A program made the position numbers and the translations under genes. From the NCBI RefSeq assembly GCF_001190945.1, contig NZ_CP011112.1:682001-746000 (forward strand): a stretch of 64,000 bases of DNA, written 5' to 3'. This DNA is from Luteipulveratus mongoliensis (lineage in GTDB: Bacteria > Actinomycetota > Actinomycetes > Actinomycetales > Dermatophilaceae). The notes beneath the pieces are model-generated. The model ran no database searches. It was not told the origin of the DNA and was given only the letters and a program-made list of their open reading frames with translations. Of this stretch, positions 29,049-44,926 are shown piece by piece (position 1 is the stretch's first letter; every line of letters starts with the position of its first letter).

Positions 29049-29166
29049 TCCAACTCCACGAGCAGGCCACTCAGTCCAGGCCCCGCTGTGGCGATCTCCG
29101 AGAGATCACACGACACCATGCGTTGAAGTCCTACCTCAGCGAGAATGAGCCGATGGGGTGGCGGGC

Positions 29167-31929
29167 ATGATGGAGTGGAGCGACGCGGCGCGGTCTGTCT
29201 GGGGTAAGACCGACCCGAAGAGCGACACCTCCATGCCGCTCGTACGCCATCTCGAGGACACGGCCGCGGTCGCCGGACACGTATGGGACCACTGGCTGCC
29301 GACCAGCATCAAGCAACACGTGGGCGCGGCGTTGCCGCGTGGCGAGGCGGACGGGCGCACCCTCCTCACCTGGCTTGCCGGCGTGCACGATGTCGGCAAG
29401 GCCAGTCCGGCGTTCGCGGTCAAGGCGCGGAAGGCCCCGGGTTTCGGACACCTCGTCGGGGAGATGGAGGCCCAGGGCCTCGTGTGCGGTACGCCAATCG
29501 CGCCTCTCCCTCCGCACTGCCGGGTCGGGCACTCGTTGGTGGAACGATGGTTGGAGCGATTCCAGCCTGCGAGGCGAGCGTCGCCGAGCCTGGCGGTGGT
29601 CGTCGGCGGTCACCACGGTGTGCAGCCGACGGTGATGGATCTGCGCGCGATCCGCCGCGAGCACCTCGGAGCCACACCCGAGTGGGAGGCGGCGCAGACC
29701 GAGATCTTGACGCACATGGCCCAGCTCACTGGCGCCGACGACAGGCTGCACGACTGGTTGCGACAGCCGCTCCCGCTGACGTCCCAGGTACTCCTCACAG
29801 CGAGCGTGGTTGTCGCGGACTGGTTGGCCAGCGACACCTTGCGGTTCCCGCACCAGGATCCCTCAGCCTCCGCCGTGCGTCTGGCACGAGCCGACCTTGA
29901 TCGTGACCTGCTGGGGCCGTGGCACGCCACTGATCCGGGTTCTGACGTCAATGACGTGATGTCCCAACGGTTCCCACGGCTCAAAGGAGTGTCGGCGAAC
30001 TCCGTTCAGACGGCGGCGGTGCGGGCGGCACGCGCGACATCGTCACCGTGCCTCATGCTGATCGAGGCGCCGATGGGTGCAGGCAAGACGGAGGCGGCGC
30101 TCATGGTGGCGGAGGTGCTTGCCCACCGGTTCGGTCAAGGCGGAGTACTGATGGGGCTCCCGACCATGGCGACCTCCGGCGCGATGTTCGGACGCGTTCT
30201 GGACTGGTTAGACCATGCCAACGTCGGAGTCCGCGCCAGTGTGACCTTGGCCCACAGCAAGGCCGGGCTCGACGACAGGTACGCCGGTCTGGTCGCGAAC
30301 GGACGCGTCAGGGGCGTGGGCGAGCCTGAAGGTGAACGAGATTCGGTCGCGGTGGTCAGCTCGTGGTTACGAGGTCGTCGCAAGGGCTCGCTCGCGAGCA
30401 TGGTCGTCGGCACCATCGACCAAGCGCTCTTCGGGGCTCTGCAGGTCAGGCACGTGGCCCTCAGACAACTCGCGCTGGCTGGCAAGGTCGTCGTTCTCGA
30501 CGAGGTTCACGCGGCGGACGCCTACATGCAGCGTTACCTCGTGCGGGTTCTCGAGTGGCTGGGCGCGTATGGCACTCCGGTCATACTCCTGTCCGCGACA
30601 CTGCCGCCGGCGCGCAGAGCCGAGCTGCTGGGCGCCTACGCCAGGGGCAGGGATCTCCCGCCGGTGCTAGTGACGGCCGAGGTGGAGTACCCGCGCATCA
30701 GCGTGCAGAGCGCCGACCTCGTGGAGAACCACGTTCCGTGGGACGGGCGTCGGACGTCCGTGACGGTCGAGGCTCTGCCCGACGGTGTCGGGCATCTGGT
30801 CGCCGCTATCCGACCGGTCGTCGCCGACGGAGCGTGCGTGGCTGTCATCCACAACACGGTCAGGCGCGCGCAGGGGACGTACGACGCGTTGGTCGCCGAG
30901 CTCGATGAGGCGCGAGTTGTGTTGCTGCACAGTCAGTTTGTCGCCGTTGATCGCATGAAGAAGGAGAGAGCGCTCCGCGACGCGCTCGGTCCACAGGCAT
31001 TAGGAAGACCGCAAGGGTTCGTGGTGGTCGGCACCCAGGTGCTCGAGCAGTCGCTCGACATCGACGTCGACCTGATGGTGTCCGAACTGGCACCGGTCGA
31101 CTTGATCCTGCAACGGATCGGCCGGTTGCACCGACATCCGCGCGGGGTCGGCGAACGTGACCGGCCACCAACAGCGCGACGTCCGCGGCTCCTGCTCACC
31201 GGCGTACGTGACTGGAGCTCGTCGCCACCGGAGCCTGATCGGGGCAGTCAAGCGGTGTACGGCCAGAGTGCGCTTTTGCGTGCCGCGACCGTCCTCGCAC
31301 CTCACCTCGACGGCGCGCCGGTCCAGGTGCCCGACGATGTCTCCGGTCTGGTCGACGCGGCGTACGCGCCCGGCCTGCCCTGTCCGGCGGGTTGGGAGAC
31401 GGCCTGGGCTGAGGCGGAGGCCGCGGCACGGACGCAGGACGCTCTGCAGGCGAGGAATGCGGGCGACTTCCTCCTGGGCAGCCCAACATCCACGACGCTC
31501 GTGGGGTGGCTGGAGGCGCGCGTGAGCGACACCGACGACCCGGGCGCGCGTCCGCAGGTGCGTGACGGCGAGGACGGTATCGAGGTGGTCGTAATCCAGG
31601 ACGTCGCAGGCGAGCTGCGCGCCCTGCCATGCGGCCCGATCGGCGGGAGGCGCCTGCCGCTGCGCGAGGCGGACATCGACGACAAGCTGGCCAAGCAGGT
31701 CGCGGGCTACACCCTGCGGCTGCCCATGAGGTTGTGCCGCGGCCCAAGAGGAGAGCGGGTTGTTGACGATTTAGAGCGCCAGGGAAGGGAATTCGCAGGA
31801 TGGCAGCGATCCCGGTGGCTGACGGGCGTGCTCGTGCTATCACTGGATCACGACCTCAAGGGAGAGGTCGACGGGACAGGGGTGCGGTACGACCTGAGGC
31901 GGGGGCTTCTGGTCGGTGCCGACGGGTAG
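29167..31929 (+). CDS. cas3: CRISPR-associated helicase/nuclease Cas3 (type I-E)
   Basis: The protein has about 920 residues from ATG 29167 (GTG 29158 and ATG 29170 are alternatives). The N-terminal HD nuclease shows HLEDTAAVAGHVWDHW and GVHDVGKASPAF (His-Asp near residues 74-75). The superfamily 2 helicase shows Walker A APMGAGKTEAAL (about 300), the DEVH box VVLDEVHAAD (about 445), LSATLPP, and motif VI region LILQRIGRLHRH. Cas3 is recruited by Cascade to R-loops and degrades the target DNA. It is the first gene of the cas operon, with 10 bp to cse1. All catalytic motifs look intact, so interference should be functional. Confidence 0.96.
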   Translation: MMEWSDAARSVWGKTDPKSDTSMPLVRHLEDTAAVAGHVWDHWLPTSIKQHVGAALPRGEADGRTLLTWLAGVHDVGKASPAFAVKARKAPGFGHLVGEMEAQGLVCGTPIAPLPPHCRVGHSLVERWLERFQPARRASPSLAVVVGGHHGVQPTVMDLRAIRREHLGATPEWEAAQTEILTHMAQLTGADDRLHDWLRQPLPLTSQVLLTASVVVADWLASDTLRFPHQDPSASAVRLARADLDRDLLGPWHATDPGSDVNDVMSQRFPRLKGVSANSVQTAAVRAARATSSPCLMLIEAPMGAGKTEAALMVAEVLAHRFGQGGVLMGLPTMATSGAMFGRVLDWLDHANVGVRASVTLAHSKAGLDDRYAGLVANGRVRGVGEPEGERDSVAVVSSWLRGRRKGSLASMVVGTIDQALFGALQVRHVALRQLALAGKVVVLDEVHAADAYMQRYLVRVLEWLGAYGTPVILLSATLPPARRAELLGAYARGRDLPPVLVTAEVEYPRISVQSADLVENHVPWDGRRTSVTVEALPDGVGHLVAAIRPVVADGACVAVIHNTVRRAQGTYDALVAELDEARVVLLHSQFVAVDRMKKERALRDALGPQALGRPQGFVVVGTQVLEQSLDIDVDLMVSELAPVDLILQRIGRLHRHPRGVGERDRPPTARRPRLLLTGVRDWSSSPPEPDRGSQAVYGQSALLRAATVLAPHLDGAPVQVPDDVSGLVDAAYAPGLPCPAGWETAWAEAEAAARTQDALQARNAGDFLLGSPTSTTLVGWLEARVSDTDDPGARPQVRDGEDGIEVVVIQDVAGELRALPCGPIGGRRLPLREADIDDKLAKQVAGYTLRLPMRLCRGPRGERVVDDLERQGREFAGWQRSRWLTGVLVLSLDHDLKGEVDGTGVRYDLRRGLLVGADG

Positions 31930-31939
31930 GGGGTTGGCC

Positions 31940-33586
31940 GTGGCCGAGTCGTCCTTCGATCTGCTCACGCAGCCCTGGGTTGCCGTCCGGGACGACGACG
32001 GCGTGCACGAGCTGTCGCTGATCGACACATTTGCGCGGGCGCACGAGTTGACAGGTCTTGCTGGGGAGCTGGCCACCCAGGATCTCGCGGTGCTGCGACT
32101 TCTCCTGGTGATCCTGCGTCGGACGATGGGTTCGGTCCGCGGGGACGGCGAGGCGATCGACCGCTGGGCGGAGTGGTGGCAGGCCGAGTCACTGCCCACA
32201 CCACAGATCGACGCCTACCTGGCCGGCTGCTCCGAACGGTTCGACCTCCTGCACCCCACGACACCGTTCATGCAGGTGGCCGGGCTCGAGGCGGGCAAGA
32301 CGTCCGGCCTGGTCAAGCTGATTGGCGACGTGCCGGACGGACACCGGTACTTCACCCTCCGGTCGGGTGCGGGTCTGCGGTCGCTGTCATACGCCGAGGC
32401 GGCGCGGTGGGTGGTGCACTGTCAGGCGTTCGACCCGTCCGGCATCAAGTCCGGAGCGCTGGACGATGGACGGACCAAAGGCGGCAGGGGCTACCCCATC
32501 GGAACCGGCTGGACCGGTCGCTGCGGTCTCGTCGTCATGGAGGGCGCAAACCTCAAGGAGACGCTGCTCCTGAACTTGCGCCTCGATCCGGACGACGCCC
32601 CCGAAGACCGGCCCGTCTGGGAGCGGGAGATACCGACCGAGACACCCGATCCGATGCACGTCGTCGCGGCTGGTCCCTGTGACCTGATGACCTGGCCGAT
32701 TCGGCGAATCCGGTTGATACACAACGGTTCTGAGGTCACCGACGCCATCATCGCCAACGGCACTCCCGTGCAGTGGCACAACCAGCACCGGCTCGAGACG
32801 ATGACGGCGTGGCGCCGCAGCTCCGGTCAGGAGAAGAAGCACGGTGTGCCCGCCTACATGCCGCACGAGCACGATGCCAACCGCTCGTTCTGGCGAGGTC
32901 TGCAAAGCCTCATGGTGACCGGCGGCGAGCGGCGTACCACCAGCAATGACGCCGAGCAGTCGCTGCCGCCGCGCACCCTCGACTGGATCGCGACCCTGCA
33001 GGCCGATGACGCTCTGGACGTGGACCACCCGACCCGGATGCGTGCGATCGGCATGGTCTATGGCAGCAACAGCTCGGTGGTGGCGAGCGTGGTCGACGAC
33101 GCGTTGCAGCTGAGGCTGTCCGTGCTGACCGACTCGGACCTCGAAGCAGAGGTGGTCGCCGCGCTCCGGGCCGCGGACGAGGGCGTACAAGCCCTGGCCA
33201 ACCTGGCAGCCAACCTGGCCCGCGCGTCGGGCGCTCTGCCCGAGGAGGATCGCGAGGCGGCTCGGGCGCAGGGCTACTACGGCCTGGACCAGGGCTTTCG
33301 CCGATGGGTGTCGACGTTGTCGACGCGCTCGGACCCGACCGAGCGGCGTACGGCGTGGCAGAGCTACGTCCATCACACGCTCGGGGCGATGGGTGACGCA
33401 CTCGTCACAGCCTCTGGTGATCAGGTCTGGCGTGGCCGACTCGTCACCCAGACCAAAGGCGGCGAGCGTCTCGTCAACGCGCCCGTCGCACACCTGTGGT
33501 TCACCGGCACGCTGCGCTCGGTCCTCCCGGCCGCGAACCAGGTCCAACCCAGTGACCGCACCACACCGGAGAGCGCCGATGTCTGA
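31940..33586 (+). CDS. cse1: Cascade large subunit Cse1 (Cas8e)
   Basis: The protein has 548 residues from GTG 31940. The Cse1/CasA N-terminus FDLLTQPWVAVRDDDGVHEL is clear, as are the segments FMQVAGLEAGKTSGLVKLIG and GGRGYPIGTGWTGRCGLV. The C-terminal four-helix region is present. Cse1 recognises the PAM and recruits Cas3. It overlaps cse2 by eight bases. Its length is slightly above that of the E. coli protein, as usual in actinobacteria. Confidence 0.95.
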   Translation: MAESSFDLLTQPWVAVRDDDGVHELSLIDTFARAHELTGLAGELATQDLAVLRLLLVILRRTMGSVRGDGEAIDRWAEWWQAESLPTPQIDAYLAGCSERFDLLHPTTPFMQVAGLEAGKTSGLVKLIGDVPDGHRYFTLRSGAGLRSLSYAEAARWVVHCQAFDPSGIKSGALDDGRTKGGRGYPIGTGWTGRCGLVVMEGANLKETLLLNLRLDPDDAPEDRPVWEREIPTETPDPMHVVAAGPCDLMTWPIRRIRLIHNGSEVTDAIIANGTPVQWHNQHRLETMTAWRRSSGQEKKHGVPAYMPHEHDANRSFWRGLQSLMVTGGERRTTSNDAEQSLPPRTLDWIATLQADDALDVDHPTRMRAIGMVYGSNSSVVASVVDDALQLRLSVLTDSDLEAEVVAALRAADEGVQALANLAANLARASGALPEEDREAARAQGYYGLDQGFRRWVSTLSTRSDPTERRTAWQSYVHHTLGAMGDALVTASGDQVWRGRLVTQTKGGERLVNAPVAHLWFTGTLRSVLPAANQVQPSDRTTPESADV

Positions 33587-34235
33587 GTCGACAGCAACCA
33601 GGTCCACGACCGATCAGGTCATGGACGCAGCCCGAGAGCGGATCTCCGAGCTGCAACGCGACTACCTCCCCAGCGGTGCCCGCGACCAACCCACGGCGCG
33701 CGCGGCCGGGATGATGGCCGCGCTGCGACGTCTCGAGCCGTCGGCCCTCACAGCCGAGCCGAAGGTGTGGGAGCTGACCCTCGGTGGTCTGCCGCCCGGG
33801 CTCGCCGGCCATGGCGACCAGCCGTCCCGCGCGGAGCGAGCGGTTCACGCGGGACTGGTGTTGTACGCCGTACACCAGCAGTCCCGGCCGGAACCGATGC
33901 ACGTGCCGGGTGTCTCCCTGGGCGCGGCGATCCGGAGGCTGGCGAAGGCGCGGTCGCCGAAGGACGAGCTCGACCCGGCCACGCTGCGACGATTCGAGCA
34001 GGTCATCGTCTCGACCACGTGGGAGCGACGGCTCTATCACCTGCGCGAGCTGATGACCCTCCTTCGCGCCCATCGGCTGCCGCTCGACCACGTTCGCCTG
34101 ACCGGGGACCTGTTCGACCTGCAACTGGCCGTGTCCGTTGAGCGCGTACGACTTCGGTGGGGCCGCGACCTGCACCGACCCGGTCGATCAGAGGACCAGA
34201 CCACTTCAGCAAGTCAGGACGGAGACCAGCCATGA
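33579..34235 (+). CDS. cse2: Cascade small subunit Cse2 (Cas11)
   Basis: The protein has 218 residues from ATG 33579. Cse2/CasB features are an all-helical fold with RDYLPSGARDQPTARAAGMM, ALRRLEPSALTAEPKVWELT and IVSTTWERRLYHLRELMTLL followed by LDHVRLTGDLFDLQ. The dimer forms the belly of Cascade and stabilises the displaced strand. The stop overlaps the cas7e start (ATGA). Confidence 0.93.
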   Translation: MSESTATRSTTDQVMDAARERISELQRDYLPSGARDQPTARAAGMMAALRRLEPSALTAEPKVWELTLGGLPPGLAGHGDQPSRAERAVHAGLVLYAVHQQSRPEPMHVPGVSLGAAIRRLAKARSPKDELDPATLRRFEQVIVSTTWERRLYHLRELMTLLRAHRLPLDHVRLTGDLFDLQLAVSVERVRLRWGRDLHRPGRSEDQTTSASQDGDQP

Positions 34236-35362
34236 CCGGACGGTTCATCGACATCCACGTGTTGCAGACGGTGCCGCCGAGCAATATCAACCGCGACGAC
34301 ACCGGCAAACCGAAGTCGGCGGTGTTCGGTGGCGTACCGAGGGCTCGCGTGAGCAGCCAGGCGTGGAAGCGCGCGACGCGAGCGGCGTACGGAGATCACC
34401 TGAACGATGCGGATCTCGGGGTGCGGACCAAGCGCGTGGTCGAACAGATCTGCGGGCGACTCGCCAAGAGTCATCCGGAACTCGCGCCGGACGAAGCGCG
34501 CACCCGCGCCGAGAAGGTGATCGAGGCACTCGGCCTCAAGCTGGAGAAGCCGCGTGGCAAGGCCAAGGGCGGCGAGGATGCCGACGACGCCTTTCGGGGC
34601 ACCGAGTACCTCGTCTTCTTCAGCAACACCCAGATCGAGCGGCTCGCCGCGTTGGCCGCCGACGGCGATGGGGCATCGGTCGACAAGAAGGTCGCGAAGG
34701 CCGCGGCAGGTGGTGACCATGGCGTCGAGGTGTCCCTCTTCGGGCGCATGGTCGCCGACGACAAGGGCCTCAATGTCGACGCGTCCGTGCAGGTGGCGCA
34801 CGCGATCAGCACCCACGCGGTCGAGCTGGAGCAGGACTACTTCACCGCAGTCGACGACCGCAATCCGGAGGGCCAGTCTGGAGCCGGGATGCTCGGGACG
34901 ATCGAGTTCAACTCGGCCACGTTGTATCGGTACGCGACGGTCAATGTCGCGGGACTGCGCGACAACCTCGGCGATGACGCTGCGACGGTCCGCGCGGTGC
35001 AGGCGTTCGTGCGGGCGTTCATCAGGAGCATGCCGACCGGCAAGCAGAACACCTTCGCCAACCGAACCGTCCCGGACGCCGTCGTGGTGATCGTGCGAGA
35101 GGATCAACCGGTCAACCTGGTTGGCGCCTTCGAGGACCCGGTAGTCGCCAACGGAGAGGGACTGATCGAGCAGTCCGCGGCTCGGCTGGCCGCCGAGGTC
35201 GCGTCGGTGCGGGACTTCGTCTCTGCGCCGGTAGCGTCCCTCGTGGTGGCCCGCCAGAGGGCGGCCGCGCTCGCTGGCGTCGGCGAGAAGGTCTCGTTGG
35301 ACGGGCTCGTGGAGCGGCTCGATGGGCTGGTGCTCGTGCCAACCGAGCCGTTGCCGGCATGA
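34232..35362 (+). CDS. cas7e: Cascade backbone subunit Cas7e (Cse4/CasC)
   Basis: The protein has 376 residues from ATG 34232. The hallmark start is FIDIHVLQTVPPSNINRDDT followed by KSAVFGGVPRARVSSQAWKR. Later segments are EYLVFFSNTQIERLAALA, YFTAVDD and MLGTIEFNSATLYRYATVNV. Six copies line the crRNA spacer in the Cascade complex. The gene overlaps cse2 and cas5e by four bases each, which indicates tight translational coupling. Confidence 0.96.
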   Translation: MTGRFIDIHVLQTVPPSNINRDDTGKPKSAVFGGVPRARVSSQAWKRATRAAYGDHLNDADLGVRTKRVVEQICGRLAKSHPELAPDEARTRAEKVIEALGLKLEKPRGKAKGGEDADDAFRGTEYLVFFSNTQIERLAALAADGDGASVDKKVAKAAAGGDHGVEVSLFGRMVADDKGLNVDASVQVAHAISTHAVELEQDYFTAVDDRNPEGQSGAGMLGTIEFNSATLYRYATVNVAGLRDNLGDDAATVRAVQAFVRAFIRSMPTGKQNTFANRTVPDAVVVIVREDQPVNLVGAFEDPVVANGEGLIEQSAARLAAEVASVRDFVSAPVASLVVARQRAAALAGVGEKVSLDGLVERLDGLVLVPTEPLPA

Positions 35363-36072
35363 GTGTTCTCCTTCTCCGACTAGCCGGACCCTTGCAGGCC
35401 TGGGGGGACTCCGGTTCACGGTTCACGCGGCGGGAGACCAGGCCAGAGCCCACCAAGAGCGGGGTCCTCGGCCTGCTCGCCGCTGCGGCGGGGCGTCGGC
35501 GGACCGACCCGGTCGAAGATCTGGCGGGGCTGCGGTTCGGGGTGCGCGTCGACCAGCGCGGCACGCTCGTCCGGGACTTTCAGACTGCGCATCGGCCGAC
35601 CGACGAAGCGATGATGCCGCTCTCGACGCGCTACTACCTCTCGGACGCTGTCTTCGTTGCCGGTGTCGAGGGCGACCATGAGCTGCTCGTCAGTCTCGAC
35701 GAGGCGATCAGAGCGCCTGCCTTTCCCCTCTATCTGGGGCGTCGGTCCTGTCCGCCTATTGGGCGAATCAGCCTGGGGGTTAAAGAAACTCGTCTGTACG
35801 ACGGGTTGCGCGACGCGCCGTGGGAGGCAGCGGGATGGCACCGCCAGTCTCAGAGCGATCCCGCATACTTGCCGGTTCTGATGGACGCGCCACACGACGG
35901 CGACCAGTTGGCGTACGACACGGAGTCCGTCCAGGACGTACCGATCAGCTATGCCTCGGAGCGGCGAATGTACGGCTGGCGGACCGTCGTTCGAGCCGAG
36001 CCGGTGCGCAAACCGAACCCGGATGGTCGATCTGATCGCGTCGATTATTTCGCCGCGCTGGGAGGCGTGTGA
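35359..36072 (+). CDS. cas5e: Cascade subunit Cas5e (CasD)
   Basis: The 237-residue protein starts VLLLRLAGPLQAWGDSGSRF, then RETRPEPTKSGVLGLLAAAA, typical of Cas5e. The C-terminal part includes FPLYLGRRSCPPIGRISLGV. Cas5e binds the 8-nt 5' handle of the crRNA. It overlaps both neighbours (ATGA at 35359; TGATG at 36070-36074). Confidence 0.95.
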   Translation: MSVLLLRLAGPLQAWGDSGSRFTRRETRPEPTKSGVLGLLAAAAGRRRTDPVEDLAGLRFGVRVDQRGTLVRDFQTAHRPTDEAMMPLSTRYYLSDAVFVAGVEGDHELLVSLDEAIRAPAFPLYLGRRSCPPIGRISLGVKETRLYDGLRDAPWEAAGWHRQSQSDPAYLPVLMDAPHDGDQLAYDTESVQDVPISYASERRMYGWRTVVRAEPVRKPNPDGRSDRVDYFAALGGV

Positions 36073-36788
36073 TGTATCTCGTGCGGATGCGGCTGGACCC
36101 GCGCAGCCGGGCCACCCGAAAGGTGCTGTCTTCGGCACAAGCCATGCACGCAGCGGTCCTGCGCGCATGTGGATCGGAGGCGAATGACCTTGTCGCGGAG
36201 GGTGACCGGCGGATCCTCTGGCGCGTGGATCAGCATGGGCGCGACGACATCGAGCTCTACCTGACGAGCCCCGGCAAACCCTCTCCGGACGGCTCCGCGC
36301 TTCCGGACGGGCTGCCGCCCGTCGGCTCCTGGGACATCGCCGACTACGAGCCGTTCCTGTCTCAGCTGGGCCCTGGTCAACGCTGGCTGTTCCGGCTGAC
36401 TGCCAACCCGGTGCGATCGATGAGTCGCGCGGCGCCGGATGGGCGGCGCGTGCGAGGCAAGCCGATTCCATTGACGCACGCTCATCAGGAGGAGTGGCTC
36501 GTGGCACGCGCCGAGCGTCACGGGTTCACGATCCCTCTGAACAGCCTTGACAGTCCTGAGGTTTCGGCTCGCGAGCTGCTCCAACGAGATCGTCACACGA
36601 CGTCGTTCAACAGGCGTTCCGATGGTGAGGACGCAGGTCGTACCGATCGCGTTCAGATCACACGTGTGACGTTCGAGGGTGTGCTGGACGTGACTGATCC
36701 CGACGCACTGCGACTCACGCTGCGCAACGGCATGGGCAAGGCACGCGCATACGGTTGCGGCCTCATGACCCTTGCGCCGATGAGATGA
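36072..36788 (+). CDS. cas6e: crRNA-processing endonuclease Cas6e (Cse3/CasE)
   Basis: The protein has 238 residues from ATG 36072 (GTG 36069 is also possible). Tandem ferredoxin-like folds begin MYLVRMRLDPRSRATRKVLS. The catalytic His aligns at residue 26 (SAQAMH). The C-terminal glycine-rich loop is GMGKARAYGCGLMTLAP. Cas6e cuts the pre-crRNA at the 3' base of the repeat hairpin. The 7-bp stem CTCCGCG/CGCGGAG of the downstream repeats is a suitable substrate. The gene overlaps the truncated cas1 by four bases. Confidence 0.95.
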   Translation: MYLVRMRLDPRSRATRKVLSSAQAMHAAVLRACGSEANDLVAEGDRRILWRVDQHGRDDIELYLTSPGKPSPDGSALPDGLPPVGSWDIADYEPFLSQLGPGQRWLFRLTANPVRSMSRAAPDGRRVRGKPIPLTHAHQEEWLVARAERHGFTIPLNSLDSPEVSARELLQRDRHTTSFNRRSDGEDAGRTDRVQITRVTFEGVLDVTDPDALRLTLRNGMGKARAYGCGLMTLAPMR

Positions 36789-37138
36789 AATCACCGCCGG
36801 GTCCTCCGCCCGCCGAGATCGGTGAGCTGGTGCGTGCCCAGGATCGAACGAGCTTCCTGTACGTCGAGCGGTGCACAGTTCATCGCGAGGGCAATGCCCT
36901 TACGGCACAGGATGATCGGGGCGTCGTCCACATCCCGGCGGCGACGATCGGAGCGCTGCTGTTCGGGCCTGGGACACGTGTCACGTACCAGGCGATGATG
37001 CTGCTCGCGGAGATGTGCCGTGCTGAGCCTGTTTGGCCCGGGTCTTGGTCGGATCCGCTCTGCGCTCGCGGAGATGAGCCCACGCACCCGTGTCCCGGGC
37101 CGCAGTCCAGGTCGTCCGCTCCGCGCTCGCGGAGATGA
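36785..37138 (+). pseudogene. cas1: cas1 remnant: N-terminal ~75 codons running into the CRISPR array
   Basis: ATG 36785 overlaps the cas6e stop. The frame encodes a normal Cas1e N-terminus (PPAEIGELVRAQDRTSFLYV, ERCTVHREGNALTAQDDRG, VVHIPAATIGALLFGPGTRV) until about TYQAMMLLAE near 37012. It then becomes repeat and spacer sequence, ending at 37138 with repeat-encoded residues SAPRSRR. The full protein should be near 300 residues; the C-terminal catalytic domain (Glu, His, Asp metal ligands) is missing and no cas2 follows. Integration of new spacers should therefore be impossible unless supplied in trans. The junction is described under findings. Confidence 0.9.
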
Positions 37139-38790
37139 GCCCAGGACCGACACCTGCACCGTGTCGCCGACGCGGTCCGCTCCGCGATCGCGGAGATGAG
37201 CCCACCATCGGGAGGGGGGTCGTCATGGACGTCCGCTCCGTGCTTGCGGAGATGAGCCTTGCGACTCCTCTGGCGTGATCGAGATCGCCTGGTCCGCTTC
37301 GCACTCGCGGAGATGAGCCCGAGATGACGACAGCAGTGGCGGCGACCACCACGTCCGCTCCGCGCTCGCGGAGATGAGCCGACGCTGGCCAAGCAGGCGC
37401 AGCACTTCGCCAAGTCCGCTCCGCGCTCGCGGAGATGAGCCCCGGATCGCTTGCGACGCCGCGCCAGGCTCGCCGTCCGCTCCGCGCTCGCGGAGATGAG
37501 CCGTTCAGCAAGACCAACGTCGACCAGTGGCGCATGTCCGCTCCGCGCTCGCGGAGATGAGCCGACGCTGGCCAAGCAGGCGCAGCACTTCGCCAAGTCC
37601 GCTCCGCGCTCGCGGATATGAGCCCAGGGAGACGCCAGCCTTCACGGTCTGGAAGGTGTCCGCTCCGCGCTCGCGGAGATGAGCCCTGCTTGGTCTTCGT
37701 GCCCTGCCACGGGTACTCGTCCGCTCCGCGCTCGCGGAGATGAGCCGTACTCGACCGGCACGCCGAACACGTCAGCGATGTCCGCTCCGCGCTCGCGGAG
37801 AAGAGCCCTACGGACGGAGTGACGACGATGACGACGACTGGTCGCTCCGCGCTCGCGGAGATGAGCCCGGCTACATCGGCGCGGCGGCGTTCGCCCAAGG
37901 GTCCGCTCCGCGCTCGCGGAGATGAGCCCGCGCGACGCTCGTCAGCTTCACGCGTCGATGTCCGCTCCGCGCTCGCGGAGATGAGCCGGAGCGGGTCATG
38001 ATCACAGAAACAGGAACCAAGTCCGCTCCGCGCCCGCGGAGATGAGCCCGCGCCGGCGTGGTCGAGGTAGTAGGTGACGACGTCCGCTCCGCGCTCGCGG
38101 AGATGAGCCCTGCCTGACGACTGCGCTTGTCCGCTGCTGCTGGTCCGCTCCGCGCTTGCGGAGATGAGCCGGCGTTCAGCGGCCAGACGATCGACATCGA
38201 CGTGTCCGCTCCGCGCTCGCGGAGATGAGCCCTCTTCACCGATGGCGGCCCGCTGCTGCTGGTCCGCTCCGCGCTCGCGGAGATGAGCCCTGCTTGGTCT
38301 TCGCGCCCTGCCACGGGTACTCGTCCGCTCCGCTCGCGGAGATGAGCCCGGAGGGGGAGCAAGTGAGCCGACTCAGGCTGATTCCGCTCCGCGCTCGCGG
38401 AGATGAGCCCCTCAGTGGGGGAGGAAGTGGGGGAGGACGGACGAGCACGGCACGTCCGCTCCGCGCTCGCGGAGATGAGCCCCTCAGTGGGGGAGGAAGT
38501 GGGGGAGGACGGACGAGCACGGCACGTCCGCTCCGCGCTCGCGGAGATGAACCCTACGTCCTACGGCTGACTCGCGATGAACTCAAGTCCGCTCGCGTTC
38601 GCGGAGATGAGCCCTCCACGACGGCTTACTTGGCGGCTCGCTTCACATCCGCTCCGCGCTCGCGGAGATGAGCCCAGGTACCGGTGCGCTCCTTTGTGCC
38701 GAACACGGTCCGCTCCGCGCTTGCGGAGATGAGCTCCAGCTCTGCTGGTCCTGCTCGACATCGGCGACGTCGGCTCCGCTGACATGAGCC
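37053..38790 (+). CRISPR. Type I-E CRISPR array, 29 repeats, no leader
   Basis: The repeat is 28 bp plus one variable base. It begins GTCCGCTCCGCG and ends CTCGCGGAGATGAGCC, with a 7-bp hairpin CTCCGCG/CGCGGAG. The usual period is 61 bp (33-bp spacers, or 32 plus the 29th repeat base), with shorter units at 37203, 37929 and 38232 and two 44-bp spacers at 38410 and 38482. The orientation matches E. coli-type repeats read from the cas side, giving a 5' handle AUGAGCC plus one base. Both ends contain degenerate repeats; the last (38769-38790) is truncated. A half-repeat formed by cas1 sequence lies in register at 37003-37019. Spacers are duplicated at 37381/37564 (identical), 37686/38290 (one mismatch) and 38410/38482 (identical). 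Confidence 0.97.
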
Positions 38791-38851
38791 CCGGCCACCG
38801 CATGATCCTTCGAGTTCACCCTCCACACATCTCTCGAACGGAGTCATCACG

Positions 38852-38935
38852 ATGACCGCGCCACACATTGTCGACCCTGCTGGGTGAAGCCCCGTCCGGG
38901 GCCTCACCGGACCCAATGCGCACCTCGTTGCAGCC
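38852..38935 (+). pseudogene. Remnant of IS256-type transposase N-terminus (frameshifted)
   Basis: ATG 38852, preceded by ACGGAG, encodes MTAPHIVDPAG and then stops at TGA 38885. Shifting frame at about 38877 continues with LLGEAPSGASPDPMRTSLQ. The combination strongly resembles the start of actinobacterial IS256-family transposases (MTAPHIVDPAxLLxEA..ASPDLMR..L). The rest of the transposase is absent. Both a frameshift and a truncation are present, so it is a decayed IS copy at the distal end of the CRISPR array. Confidence 0.6.
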
Positions 38936-41258: not shown

Positions 41259-41425
41259 ACGTGTTCCATCCGACTGGTCCGGCTTGCGAGGATGGACAGA
41301 TGCCTTCGTTGTTTCGGCCATCGCCGGGCCTCAGCATGAGACTCTTCGGGTGCCGCGCATGACCGCGCAAGGAGTCCTGCGCACGGGACCCGGTGGGGAC
41401 CGCCCTTACGAGGGAGGGGGGCACT

Positions 41426-44400
41426 ATGTCGAAGACGATCCAACGCTGGACCGGTCGCGAGTCGCGCGCGCTCCGCGAAGCACTGCGGATGAGCGTGCGC
41501 ACGTTCGCGCAGTACCTGGGTGTCAGCGATCGGGCAGTCTCCAAGTGGGAATCCGGTGATGGTGCACGCACACCCGGACCGGACTCTCAAGCGATCCTTG
41601 ATACGGCGTACACCCGCGCCGACGACGCGGCGCGTGACCGGTTCTGGGATTCCCTCACGCCCGACGCTCGACCCGACACGCCCACCAGCATCGGCCTGGC
41701 CATGGTTCCCGACCTGGAGCCATCCATGATCGCGCGGGACGACGAGCTACAGACGCTCGTGAGGATGCTCGATGAGGCTTCGAATGCCTCTGGGGCACAA
41801 GTCATTACGGTCGCCGGGCCGGGTGGGTTCGGCAAGACGACGCTCGCCACACAGACTGTCCATGACGATCAGGTCCTGGACCTGTTCCCAGAGATCCTGT
41901 GGGTCGAGACTGGCGAGGAGTGCTCGGCCGCCCGGCTCACGCACCTGATCACTGACCTGTGCTTCCATCTCGATGGCACTCGGCCACAGCTATCGGACCC
42001 GGAGCAAGCGGGGTTCCATCTCGCCCGCGTCATCGGAGACCGGCGGCTTCTGATGGTCGTGGACAACGTGTGGTCCGGCGCAGACCTGGCCCCCTTCCTG
42101 TTGGGCGCACCCAACTGCGTACGCCTGGTGACCACCCGCAACCTGCGCGTCACACCAACCACCGCACGGATCCTGCGGCTCGGTCCTATGGGGTCGGCAG
42201 AGGTCATCGAGCTCCTACAGAGAACAATCCCATCCGCCTCAGCACCTGCGTTGCGACCGTTGATCGAGCTCTGCGGTGGGTGGCCGCTGCTGGCAAATCT
42301 TGTCGGCGCGAGCGTGAGCAGCGATGTCGTCGCGGGAGCATCAGCCGGGACCGCCCTCCGTATCGCGCGCGATGCGCTACAGGCGCACGGCCCTCAAGCC
42401 TTCGATATCTGGGACGCCGATCAGCGCACAGCGGCGATCAGCCACGTCATCTCGACCTCACTGCGAGCCCTCGATGACGGTGTACGTCTATCTGGCGCAG
42501 AGGGCTTGAGCGAGCGGTACGCATCCCTGGCCGCCTTTCCTCCTTCGATGCCCATCCCCTTGGACGTGCTGGCGCGATGGTGGGGCCACGCCTACGGCTG
42601 GTCATCGGTCGTCGTCCGACAGTTCTGCAAGGTGCTCGCCGACCGGTCGCTGATCAGCGCCTACCGTGCAGACGTCGAGGCCATCGTTCTGCACGACGTC
42701 TTCCGCGCCTACCTGCTGGGCGAGGTCGGTGAATCGCTCCCGGACCTGCACCGATCACTGCTGGCCGCGATCGAGCTGCCCTCCGGATGGTCGGCGATGC
42801 CGCGAGACCGGACGTACGAGTGGGCGAACATGACGTTCCACCTTTCCCAGGCGCACGAGCATCAGGCGTTGGCCACGCTTCTCTCCGATCCGGAGTACGT
42901 GACGGCCAAGGCAAGCGTCTGTGGGGCACAGGCGTTGCGCGCGGACCACGACCTCCTCATGTCTGTGGACGGCGACACTGACGACGATGTGTTGGATCGA
43001 GCACGCTTCCTGACATCGCAGGGCTACCTGCTGCACGGCCAACGGTCCGAACCGGATATGGCCAGCACGTTGCTCATCGCGACGTTGCGGAACGGGAAGA
43101 AGCCCGATGGCACATTTCTTGACGTCCTCCGCGGAACCGGAGTCTCGGTGCCCTGGGCGACAGCACCGGAGGACAGGGAGCTTCCGGGTCATGTGGGCAC
43201 CGTGGTGTCAGTCGCTGCGCGGGAGGACCTGCTCGTCTCGGGCGGCGAGGACGGCGTAGTCCGCGTCTGGGACCTCTCGACGAAGAGTCTGATCAGGACG
43301 TTGCCCGGACATACGGGTTGGGTGCATGCGGTCGCGATCTCACCGGACGGCAATCTCATCGCCTCAGCCGGTGAGGACAGCGCGATCCGATTGTGGTCGA
43401 CTACCAACGGAACGCACGTGGGCGTCTTGCCGGGTCACGACAAGCGGATTCGAACGTTGACCTTCCTCCACCACAGCAGCCACCTGGCTTCAGGTGCTGA
43501 GGACGGACTGATCCGCGTCTGGGACCTGACGACGTCGACACTGGCGCGGCAGGCGACAACACGCGGCGTTGGCATCTGGTCGCTGTCGGTCAGCAGTGAC
43601 GACGAACTTGTCGCCGTCAGCGGCGAGGACGAGTACGTACGCCTGCTGGACCTGCACACCGGAGACCTGCTCGATGAGAGGGCTTCGCACCGCAGCTGGG
43701 TCCGATCGGTGGCCTTCATTCCTGGCCAGTCCGTCTTGGTGTCGGCATCGGCGGACGGCACAGCCCGCACCTGGAAGACCGATGCAAGACGACTGGAACC
43801 TGTCGCGATCCTCGACGCCGACGGCGAACGGCTACGTGCCGTCACCACTTGGCATGGGCAGATCGTCACGGCTGGCGAGAACGCGACCATCACACGGCAC
43901 ACCACACCCCCGTCGCAGGTCCGAATGCCGGCCGGAGTCAACTGGATTCGCACGATCGCGACGACCAACGGTGGGATCGTCGCTGGCTGCGAGGACGGCG
44001 GACTCAGACTCTGGCAGCACGACGGGACTGGCTCGCTTGAGACTCTCGCCTCGGGCCGCAGCACTGTGTGGTCATCGGCCTTCGCCGAGCGCGGCCAGAC
44101 CGTGGCGCTCGGCCGTGCCGACGGCACCGTACGACTGCACAACCCCACCACCGGGCAGGAGCACTCCCGCCTCGCAGCTGGACATGGCCGGGTCTGGGCC
44201 CTCGCCGCAGCCGGCCCCTATCTCGCGGCTGCATGCGGCGACGGCCGGCTGCGCGTGTGGCGAGGCAGCACCCAGACTCTCGAGCTCAACATCGACGTCG
44301 AGCTCACGTGGGACGTCGCCATCACTCGCGACGGCACGTTGATGGCCGCCAGTGACACCAACGGGCACGTGCGCGTCTGGTCACTCCCGGATGGACATCT

Positions 44401-44926
44401 CCGCTGGGACCACGCCGCCAACGCCGGCCGGGTGCGCTCCCTGGCCCTCTCAGCCGATGCCGACCTGGTTGCCGCCGCCGGTGGCGACGGCGTGGTCCGC
44501 ACCTGGACACTCAGCACTGGAGAGCCGCACCAGGCCGTGTCGGTACCGGGATGGGCGCGCACGGTTGCGTTCGACCCGAAAGGATCCCGGCTGGCGGTTG
44601 GCGCGGGCAACGGTGACATCTACCTCCACCAGGTCGGTCAGGCGGACGCCGACATAGTCCTCGGTGGCCATCGAGGTCGAGTGCTGATGCTCGGATTCGC
44701 AGTTGACGGCTCGTGGCTCACGTCCGTTGCAGCCGACGGTGCGGTACGACGTTGGTCGCTGGATTCTGACGATCCGGCGGACGCATGTTGTGTGGCAGAC
44801 GTTCGCGTGGATGCGAGCGCCCAGTGCGCCGCGTTCGACGCCACGACGGCCAGCGTCGTGGTCGGCAGCGCGAACGGCATCGCCCTGTTGGGTTTCGGCG
44901 TCGACGAGCAAGGAGTTCACGAGTGA
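41426..44926 (+). CDS. Apaf-1-like STAND NTPase: XRE HTH, NB-ARC, 14 WD40 repeats
   Basis: The protein has 1166 residues from ATG 41426, with GGGAGGGGGG just upstream. Residues about 10-60 are an XRE helix-turn-helix (LRMSVRTFAQYLGVSDRAVS, KWESG). The NB-ARC ATPase has P-loop VAGPGGFGKTTLA (about 130), Walker B RRLLMVVDNVW (about 207), a RNBS-like LVTTRN, and the GLPL-like CGGWPLLANLVG. A helical/winged region follows. From about residue 585 there are 14 WD40-type blades (for example SGGEDGVVRVWDLSTKSLIR), enough for two seven-bladed propellers. STAND proteins oligomerise on ligand binding and activate an effector. The stop overlaps the DUF89 gene start (GTGA), so that protein is the likely partner or effector. 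Confidence 0.9.
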   Translation: MSKTIQRWTGRESRALREALRMSVRTFAQYLGVSDRAVSKWESGDGARTPGPDSQAILDTAYTRADDAARDRFWDSLTPDARPDTPTSIGLAMVPDLEPSMIARDDELQTLVRMLDEASNASGAQVITVAGPGGFGKTTLATQTVHDDQVLDLFPEILWVETGEECSAARLTHLITDLCFHLDGTRPQLSDPEQAGFHLARVIGDRRLLMVVDNVWSGADLAPFLLGAPNCVRLVTTRNLRVTPTTARILRLGPMGSAEVIELLQRTIPSASAPALRPLIELCGGWPLLANLVGASVSSDVVAGASAGTALRIARDALQAHGPQAFDIWDADQRTAAISHVISTSLRALDDGVRLSGAEGLSERYASLAAFPPSMPIPLDVLARWWGHAYGWSSVVVRQFCKVLADRSLISAYRADVEAIVLHDVFRAYLLGEVGESLPDLHRSLLAAIELPSGWSAMPRDRTYEWANMTFHLSQAHEHQALATLLSDPEYVTAKASVCGAQALRADHDLLMSVDGDTDDDVLDRARFLTSQGYLLHGQRSEPDMASTLLIATLRNGKKPDGTFLDVLRGTGVSVPWATAPEDRELPGHVGTVVSVAAREDLLVSGGEDGVVRVWDLSTKSLIRTLPGHTGWVHAVAISPDGNLIASAGEDSAIRLWSTTNGTHVGVLPGHDKRIRTLTFLHHSSHLASGAEDGLIRVWDLTTSTLARQATTRGVGIWSLSVSSDDELVAVSGEDEYVRLLDLHTGDLLDERASHRSWVRSVAFIPGQSVLVSASADGTARTWKTDARRLEPVAILDADGERLRAVTTWHGQIVTAGENATITRHTTPPSQVRMPAGVNWIRTIATTNGGIVAGCEDGGLRLWQHDGTGSLETLASGRSTVWSSAFAERGQTVALGRADGTVRLHNPTTGQEHSRLAAGHGRVWALAAAGPYLAAACGDGRLRVWRGSTQTLELNIDVELTWDVAITRDGTLMAASDTNGHVRVWSLPDGHLRWDHAANAGRVRSLALSADADLVAAAGGDGVVRTWTLSTGEPHQAVSVPGWARTVAFDPKGSRLAVGAGNGDIYLHQVGQADADIVLGGHRGRVLMLGFAVDGSWLTSVAADGAVRRWSLDSDDPADACCVADVRVDASAQCAAFDATTASVVVGSANGIALLGFGVDEQGVHE

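Follow-up and report, generated by a model that had tools for sequence, protein, structure and literature searches.

Organization of the locus

The window, i.e., the whole stretch of 64,000 nucleotides from Luteipulveratus mongoliensis that was analysed, carries on its + strand a type I-E CRISPR-Cas locus in which cas3, casA, casB, casC, casD and casE are all open (Table 1). Each of the six scores above the curated threshold of one or more NCBIfam models for Cas3 or type I-E, and the type I-E interference module (cas3 plus casA-B-C-D-E) is complete, bearing out the view of a first-pass annotation of this DNA that the interference genes had been retained, all of them as open frames. The start of cas1 sits inside the casE stop as an ATGA overlap. 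The adaptation module, which would comprise a complete cas1, cas2 and a leader, is represented by a 76-codon cas1 stump only, whose open frame extends across the first repeats as far as 37138 (117 aa). Against the type I-E Cas1 model TIGR03638, the stump covers profile positions 3-67 of 269 (E 2.9e-17); its 62.8 bits fall short of the cut-off of 215.6 set for the whole protein, as a fragment would. In line with the cas genes follows an array of 29 repeats with a predicted stem, most of them spaced 61 nt apart, as is typical of type I-E arrays (28-29-nt palindromic repeats with a period of about 61 nt).

Table 1. Features of the type I-E locus, in window coordinates
Feature	Position	Strand	Evidence
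cas3 (HD nuclease + helicase) ORF	29158..31929	+	TIGR01587 E 2e-56; TIGR01596 HD E 1.6e-17
casA/cse1	31916..33586	+	TIGR02547 E 6.3e-62; PF09481
casB/cse2, start approximate	33591..34235	+	TIGR02548 E 1.7e-31
casC/cas7, start approximate	34232..35362	+	TIGR01869 E 1.8e-89
casD/cas5e	35359..36072	+	TIGR01868 E 3.3e-40
casE/cas6e, overlapping the cas1 start (ATGA)	36069..36788	+	TIGR01907 E 1.9e-16; PF08798 E 8.9e-60
cas1 stump, 76 codons (MKSPPG...MMLLAE)	36785..37012	+	TIGR03638; 80% identity over 76 aa to Cas1 of the closest relative, G026
GCTCGCGGAGA, tract compatible with both parents; crossover within or adjoining it	37003..37013	+	
3' half of CRISPR repeat (hybrid "repeat zero"), one substitution; 5' stem half is cas1	37003..37019	+	
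Spacer 0, 33 nt	37020..37052	+	
CRISPR array, 29 repeats, consensus GTCCGCTCCGCGCTCGCGGAGATGAGCC, duplicated spacers	37053..38790	+	
Insertion-sequence 5'-end remnant, frameshifted	38792..38933	+	80% over 150-column alignment to L086

The genome is a single contig of 5.42 Mb that is 99.83% complete, and a search of it for another cas1 or cas2, which the first-pass annotation had proposed as a check, returned no other cas1 and no cas2. Neither the Cas1 family PF01867 nor the Cas2 families PF09707 and PF09827 gave a match in it, PF09707 having matched in only 2 of 14 control genomes as a positive control. The Cas2 of G026 as query likewise found no match in the genome, and the full-length Cas1 of G026 matched the stump only. 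This whole-Cas1 match runs past the stump as far as residue 96, owing to a VWPG encoded in spacer 0 that lies near the VWVG of cas1.

The junction between cas1 and the array

The LLAE codons at the end of the stump read CTG CTC GCG GAG (37001-37012). The overlapping segment 37003-37019, GCTCGCGGAGATGTGCC, is identical at 16 of 17 positions to the 3' end of the repeat, GCTCGCGGAGATGAGCC, the sole substitution being an A-to-T change, and it ends 61 bp before the end (37080) of the first full repeat. The stump stays open and conserved up to the junction, with no foreign sequence between it and the half repeat. The stump, the hybrid repeat and the 61-bp spacing together confirm the core observation of the first-pass annotation, that cas1 is joined in register to the CRISPR array. 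The exactness of the register, which had been offered there as evidence, follows simply from recombining inside a repeat; any such crossover gives a 61-nt register, which thus adds no independent evidence.

With at most one mismatch, the 17-mer occurs 28 times in the 5,420,910-base genome, always in the forward direction and always between the hybrid site and the array end, and a reversed-pattern control across the whole genome gave 0 occurrences; the match is therefore not due to chance. The predicted RNA fold of the hybrid 28-mer is -4.1 kcal/mol, compared with -11.7 kcal/mol for the consensus repeat. As the hybrid is not predicted to form the normal stem, spacer 0 is probably left without a normal crRNA. 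The stump also carries substitutions at 2 of 25 near-invariant columns, L60F and H68Y, while 15 of the 23 other rows in this comparison have none and eight have 1-4, a pattern only suggestive of relaxed constraint on the cas1 stump.

Intact loci in relatives

A Cas1 match was found in 24 of 186 genomes of the family, the Luteipulveratus mongoliensis genome included. A cas6e search of 117 relatives matched 12 other genomes of the family, in all 12 of which cas1 continues beyond LLAE, as one open frame in 11 and as two frames in G057. Neither cas6e nor cas1 was matched in the congeners G001 and G002. A strain preserving the ancestral intact locus was not found among the relatives; the closest intact loci lie in other genera, the closest being 51% identical in Cas6e.

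The distance from LLAE to the first repeat is 1067-1309 nt in 16 relatives versus 40 nt in the window, and in the relatives the intervening space is filled by the rest of cas1, cas2 and a short leader; L035, for example, has 735 nt of cas1, an overlapping cas2 of 115 codons and a 44-nt leader. The gap between cas2 and the array is 18-56 nt in 14 of the 16 loci, the remaining pair having gaps of 101 and 137 nt. These 16 come from 19 fetched relatives; the contig of L044 ends before any repeat, none were seen in L048, and L047 was also omitted, although its LLAE-repeat distance of 1157 agrees.

The residues behind LLAE in 31 aligned relative rows are S, N, C or V followed by G or A, and never the M-C of the window. 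The 6 nt that follow the 11-mer are repeat-like at 1-2 of 6 positions in all 31 rows, compared with 5 of 6 in the window. (The 31 rows represent 29 distinct loci, G057 and G202 entering twice each; the window's own L076 was left out, and L073 and L074, where the alignment ended before LLAE, and L077, which gave no hit, were dropped.) Both comparisons indicate that cas1 ends at 37012 or 37013 and that ATGTGCC belongs to the repeat. The first-pass annotation had counted ATG with LLAE; ATGTGCC is instead repeat sequence with one substitution, and the tract shared by cas1 and the repeat, given there as 13-17 bp, shrinks to at most 11 bp.

Similarity between cas1 and the repeat

The hybrid itself cannot prove that the parental cas1 and the repeat shared sequence, because beyond the crossover its sequence is bound to be that of the repeat. 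For the same reason an estimate from random junctions (at least 11 bp at 1e-5) was set aside. The similarity was scored instead by comparing cas1-cas2 of 20 relatives with the window's repeat over 21,870 position/offset pairs, with the window's own cas1 excluded. The LLAE site paired with the repeat's GCTCGCGGAGA ranked first of the 21,870, with a mean of 7.35/11 against an average of 3.13 (sd 0.86), and was also first among the ten closest relatives. However, the runner-up lies near (7.15), and the comparison favours sites close to the LLAE anchor, since indels put more distant ones out of register, so that the rank is good rather than overwhelming evidence; the 20-relative set includes G057 with its frameshifted cas1. 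The deletion discussed below would thus have fallen where cas1 and the repeat are predicted, from these alignments, to be most alike.

A related cas1 lacking the repeat-like stretch had been named beforehand as the finding that would speak against the first-pass reading. What the relatives carry is a partial version of the stretch, at the best average site, with a mean match to the 11-mer of 7.2/11, a range of 4 to 10, and 10/11 in 3 of 31 rows. A shared tract of the kind expected for a microhomology-guided deletion is present; as the parental cas1 is represented by those of relatives only, 11 bp is an upper bound, and fewer bases may really have been shared, because those to the right of the crossover necessarily match the repeat.

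State and transcription of the array

The first ten repeats are free of mismatches in 15 of 16 relatives, the exception being a ten-repeat array with 1 and 3 mismatches in two of them. By comparison, the first five full repeats of the window hold seven mismatches, and the far end is worn too, where the last repeat is badly degenerate; two other repeats carry small deletions. Spacer 9 is a copy of spacer 6, and there are several short spacers. The worn repeats together with the duplicated and short spacers make the array look old, internally shuffled and no longer renewed. The suggestion of the first-pass annotation that the array is frozen is supported in this respect, since wear even at the leader end is expected once acquisition has stopped. 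Spacers 23 and 24 are also identical, with a 72-nt period (two identical 72-bp units with an unusual 44-nt spacer, window 38382-38525), and spacers 11 (37686-37718) and 21 (38290-38322) differ at one base.

The same annotation had ascribed read-through transcription of the array to the loss of the leader. This is unlikely; read-through is probably not new, because no more than 18-56 nt separate cas2 from the array in 14 of the 16 loci of the relatives. Transcription of the array from the cas operon may well go back to the ancestor. Alternatively, a promoter may have lain inside cas2, in which case it would have been lost. A sigma-70 consensus scan of 36600-37300 found neither a promoter nor a terminator, such a scan being a poor guide in a high-GC genome.

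Origin of the junction

The best explanation, which we hold to be very probable on the sequence comparisons, is a homology-guided deletion between the LLAE codons of cas1 and the locus's own repeat. The ancestor would have been a complete type I-E locus with the order cas3-casABCDE-cas1-cas2-short leader-array. A single deletion, at least about 1.1 kb long, would then have joined the LLAE codons to the matching 3' half of a repeat of the same array. Cas2 and the leader would have gone entirely, together with some three quarters of cas1 and possibly also the youngest repeats. In this the deletion proposed by the first-pass annotation stands with respect to the rest of cas1, cas2 and the leader, while the loss of the youngest repeats is plausible only, their number being uncountable. 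A tract of 11 bp or less is short for RecA recombination, and slipped replication, single-strand annealing or microhomology end joining would fit better. Ku is encoded in the genome, which allows end joining without discriminating between these pathways. The cell would have kept its interference genes and a read-only array, from which crRNAs could in principle still be produced by read-through from the cas operon and may still guide interference, and it would be unable to add spacers with its own enzymes.

The deletion may instead have been the end of two or more steps, in which cas1 was first inactivated by a frameshift, a stop or an insertion sequence and later deletions ended by chance in LLAE and the repeat. 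Such a history has parallels in that two other family members have a cas1 disrupted in place, which is split over two frames in G057 (L069/L078) and lies in two pieces in two frames in G202 (L075/L079), the latter also with one TGA, although both are draft assemblies and sequencing error is possible; an insertion-sequence remnant moreover adjoins the other end of the array. However, no foreign sequence separates the stump from the half repeat, the stump is open and conserved to the junction, and the junction falls where cas1 and the repeat match best on average, all of which make a stepwise origin improbable.

Far less probable still is that no crossover took place at LLAE and that the 40 nt behind it are degenerate cas1, the join lying at the first full repeat, whose GTCCGCT resembles the cas1 codons for VRY. 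The continuation of the Cas1 match to residue 96 would agree with this, as would the mean score of spacer 0 against cas1 (7.25), which is above that of 25 of 26 control spacers. Yet the score is exceeded by one control spacer and equalled or bettered by 20% of shuffles, so residual cas1 in spacer 0 is not significant; the 6 nt past the 11-mer are 5/6 repeat-like, where no more than 2/6 is seen in any of the 31 relative rows, and the exact 61-nt spacing would have to be a coincidence. That the junction is an assembly artefact, the real genome having an intact cas1-cas2-leader, is equally hard to credit: the junction is known here from the assembly alone, but the genome is one contig, an 11-bp identity is far below assembly overlaps and was presumably too short to mislead the assembler, and the A-to-T change in the hybrid and the worn leader-end repeats suggest an old junction.

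Relation to known systems

A homology-guided deletion of this kind would start from a locus like those of the relatives (e.g., G026, G044 and G055), which share with the window the cas6e-cas1-cas2-array order, the 28-nt repeat type and the position of the array directly behind the cas genes, but keep cas1, cas2 and perfect leader-end repeats, which the window's locus does not have. In Beijing-lineage Mycobacterium tuberculosis, the RD207 deletion removed cas1 and cas2 (PMC5310062); that system is of type III-A, its csm genes are affected as well, and a cas1-repeat junction is not described in the part of that source relied on here. CRISPR repeats are also described, in the portion of a second source used here, as substrates for RecA-dependent exchange or RecA-independent slippage that deletes spacer-repeat units (PMC8047081); there both partners are repeats, whereas in the window one partner is a cas1 codon run. 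Among the literature matches listed (titles and abstract starts), no deletion between a cas1 codon run and a repeat was found described.

CRISPR loci are known to lose their adaptation genes, and the cas1-repeat route is a clean and well-resolved instance of this, giving a nucleotide-level picture of how a CRISPR locus loses learning and keeps its attack genes. It is a single case, and it explains a loss rather than a new function. A frozen array of this kind also serves as a clock, in which later changes of repeats and spacers represent wear and not turnover. The likeness of LLAE to the repeat might further be a built-in weak point, such that drift of a repeat towards ...CGCGGAG... lets cas1 recombine with the array and turns an adaptive locus into a fixed one in one step, perhaps favoured where adaptation is costly; we consider this a long shot.

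Spacer targets and surroundings

Exact IMG/VR scans with the first 20 nt of spacer 0 and with parts of spacers 6/9, spacer 8 and spacer 1 gave no match, and a search of a phage collection with the array (E up to 1) gave 12 records with short partial matches only, the best at E 0.04. An exact IMG/VR scan with part of spacers 11/21 found four contigs (L080-L083), which agree with spacer 11 at 31-32 of 33 bases; in three of these contigs AA precedes the match. Spacer 19 (window 38171-38203) matches the organism's own genome (L084:7734-7766) at 30/33, with AAG across the start and the three mismatches at positions 6, 8 and 9. The gene it targets has no PHROG or Pfam match, and four of eight proteins near it match phage families, including tail, head and endolysin. 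The matches of spacers 11 and 19 support a genuine phage memory that is read in the + direction.

A near-mode search of a plasmid collection with 36069-37400 gave no match. A large NB-ARC + WD40-repeat protein (1177 aa) is encoded near the CRISPR locus, at window 41393-44926, and an element of about 200 bp at window 27513-27713 matches dozens of places on both strands in the congeners G001 and G002. The insertion-sequence remnant behind the array, which we take to be mutator/IS256-like, corresponds to a copy in G001 (L086) with an intact 436-aa transposase-like ORF. With a single base between it and the final, degenerate repeat, the array may be truncated distally too.
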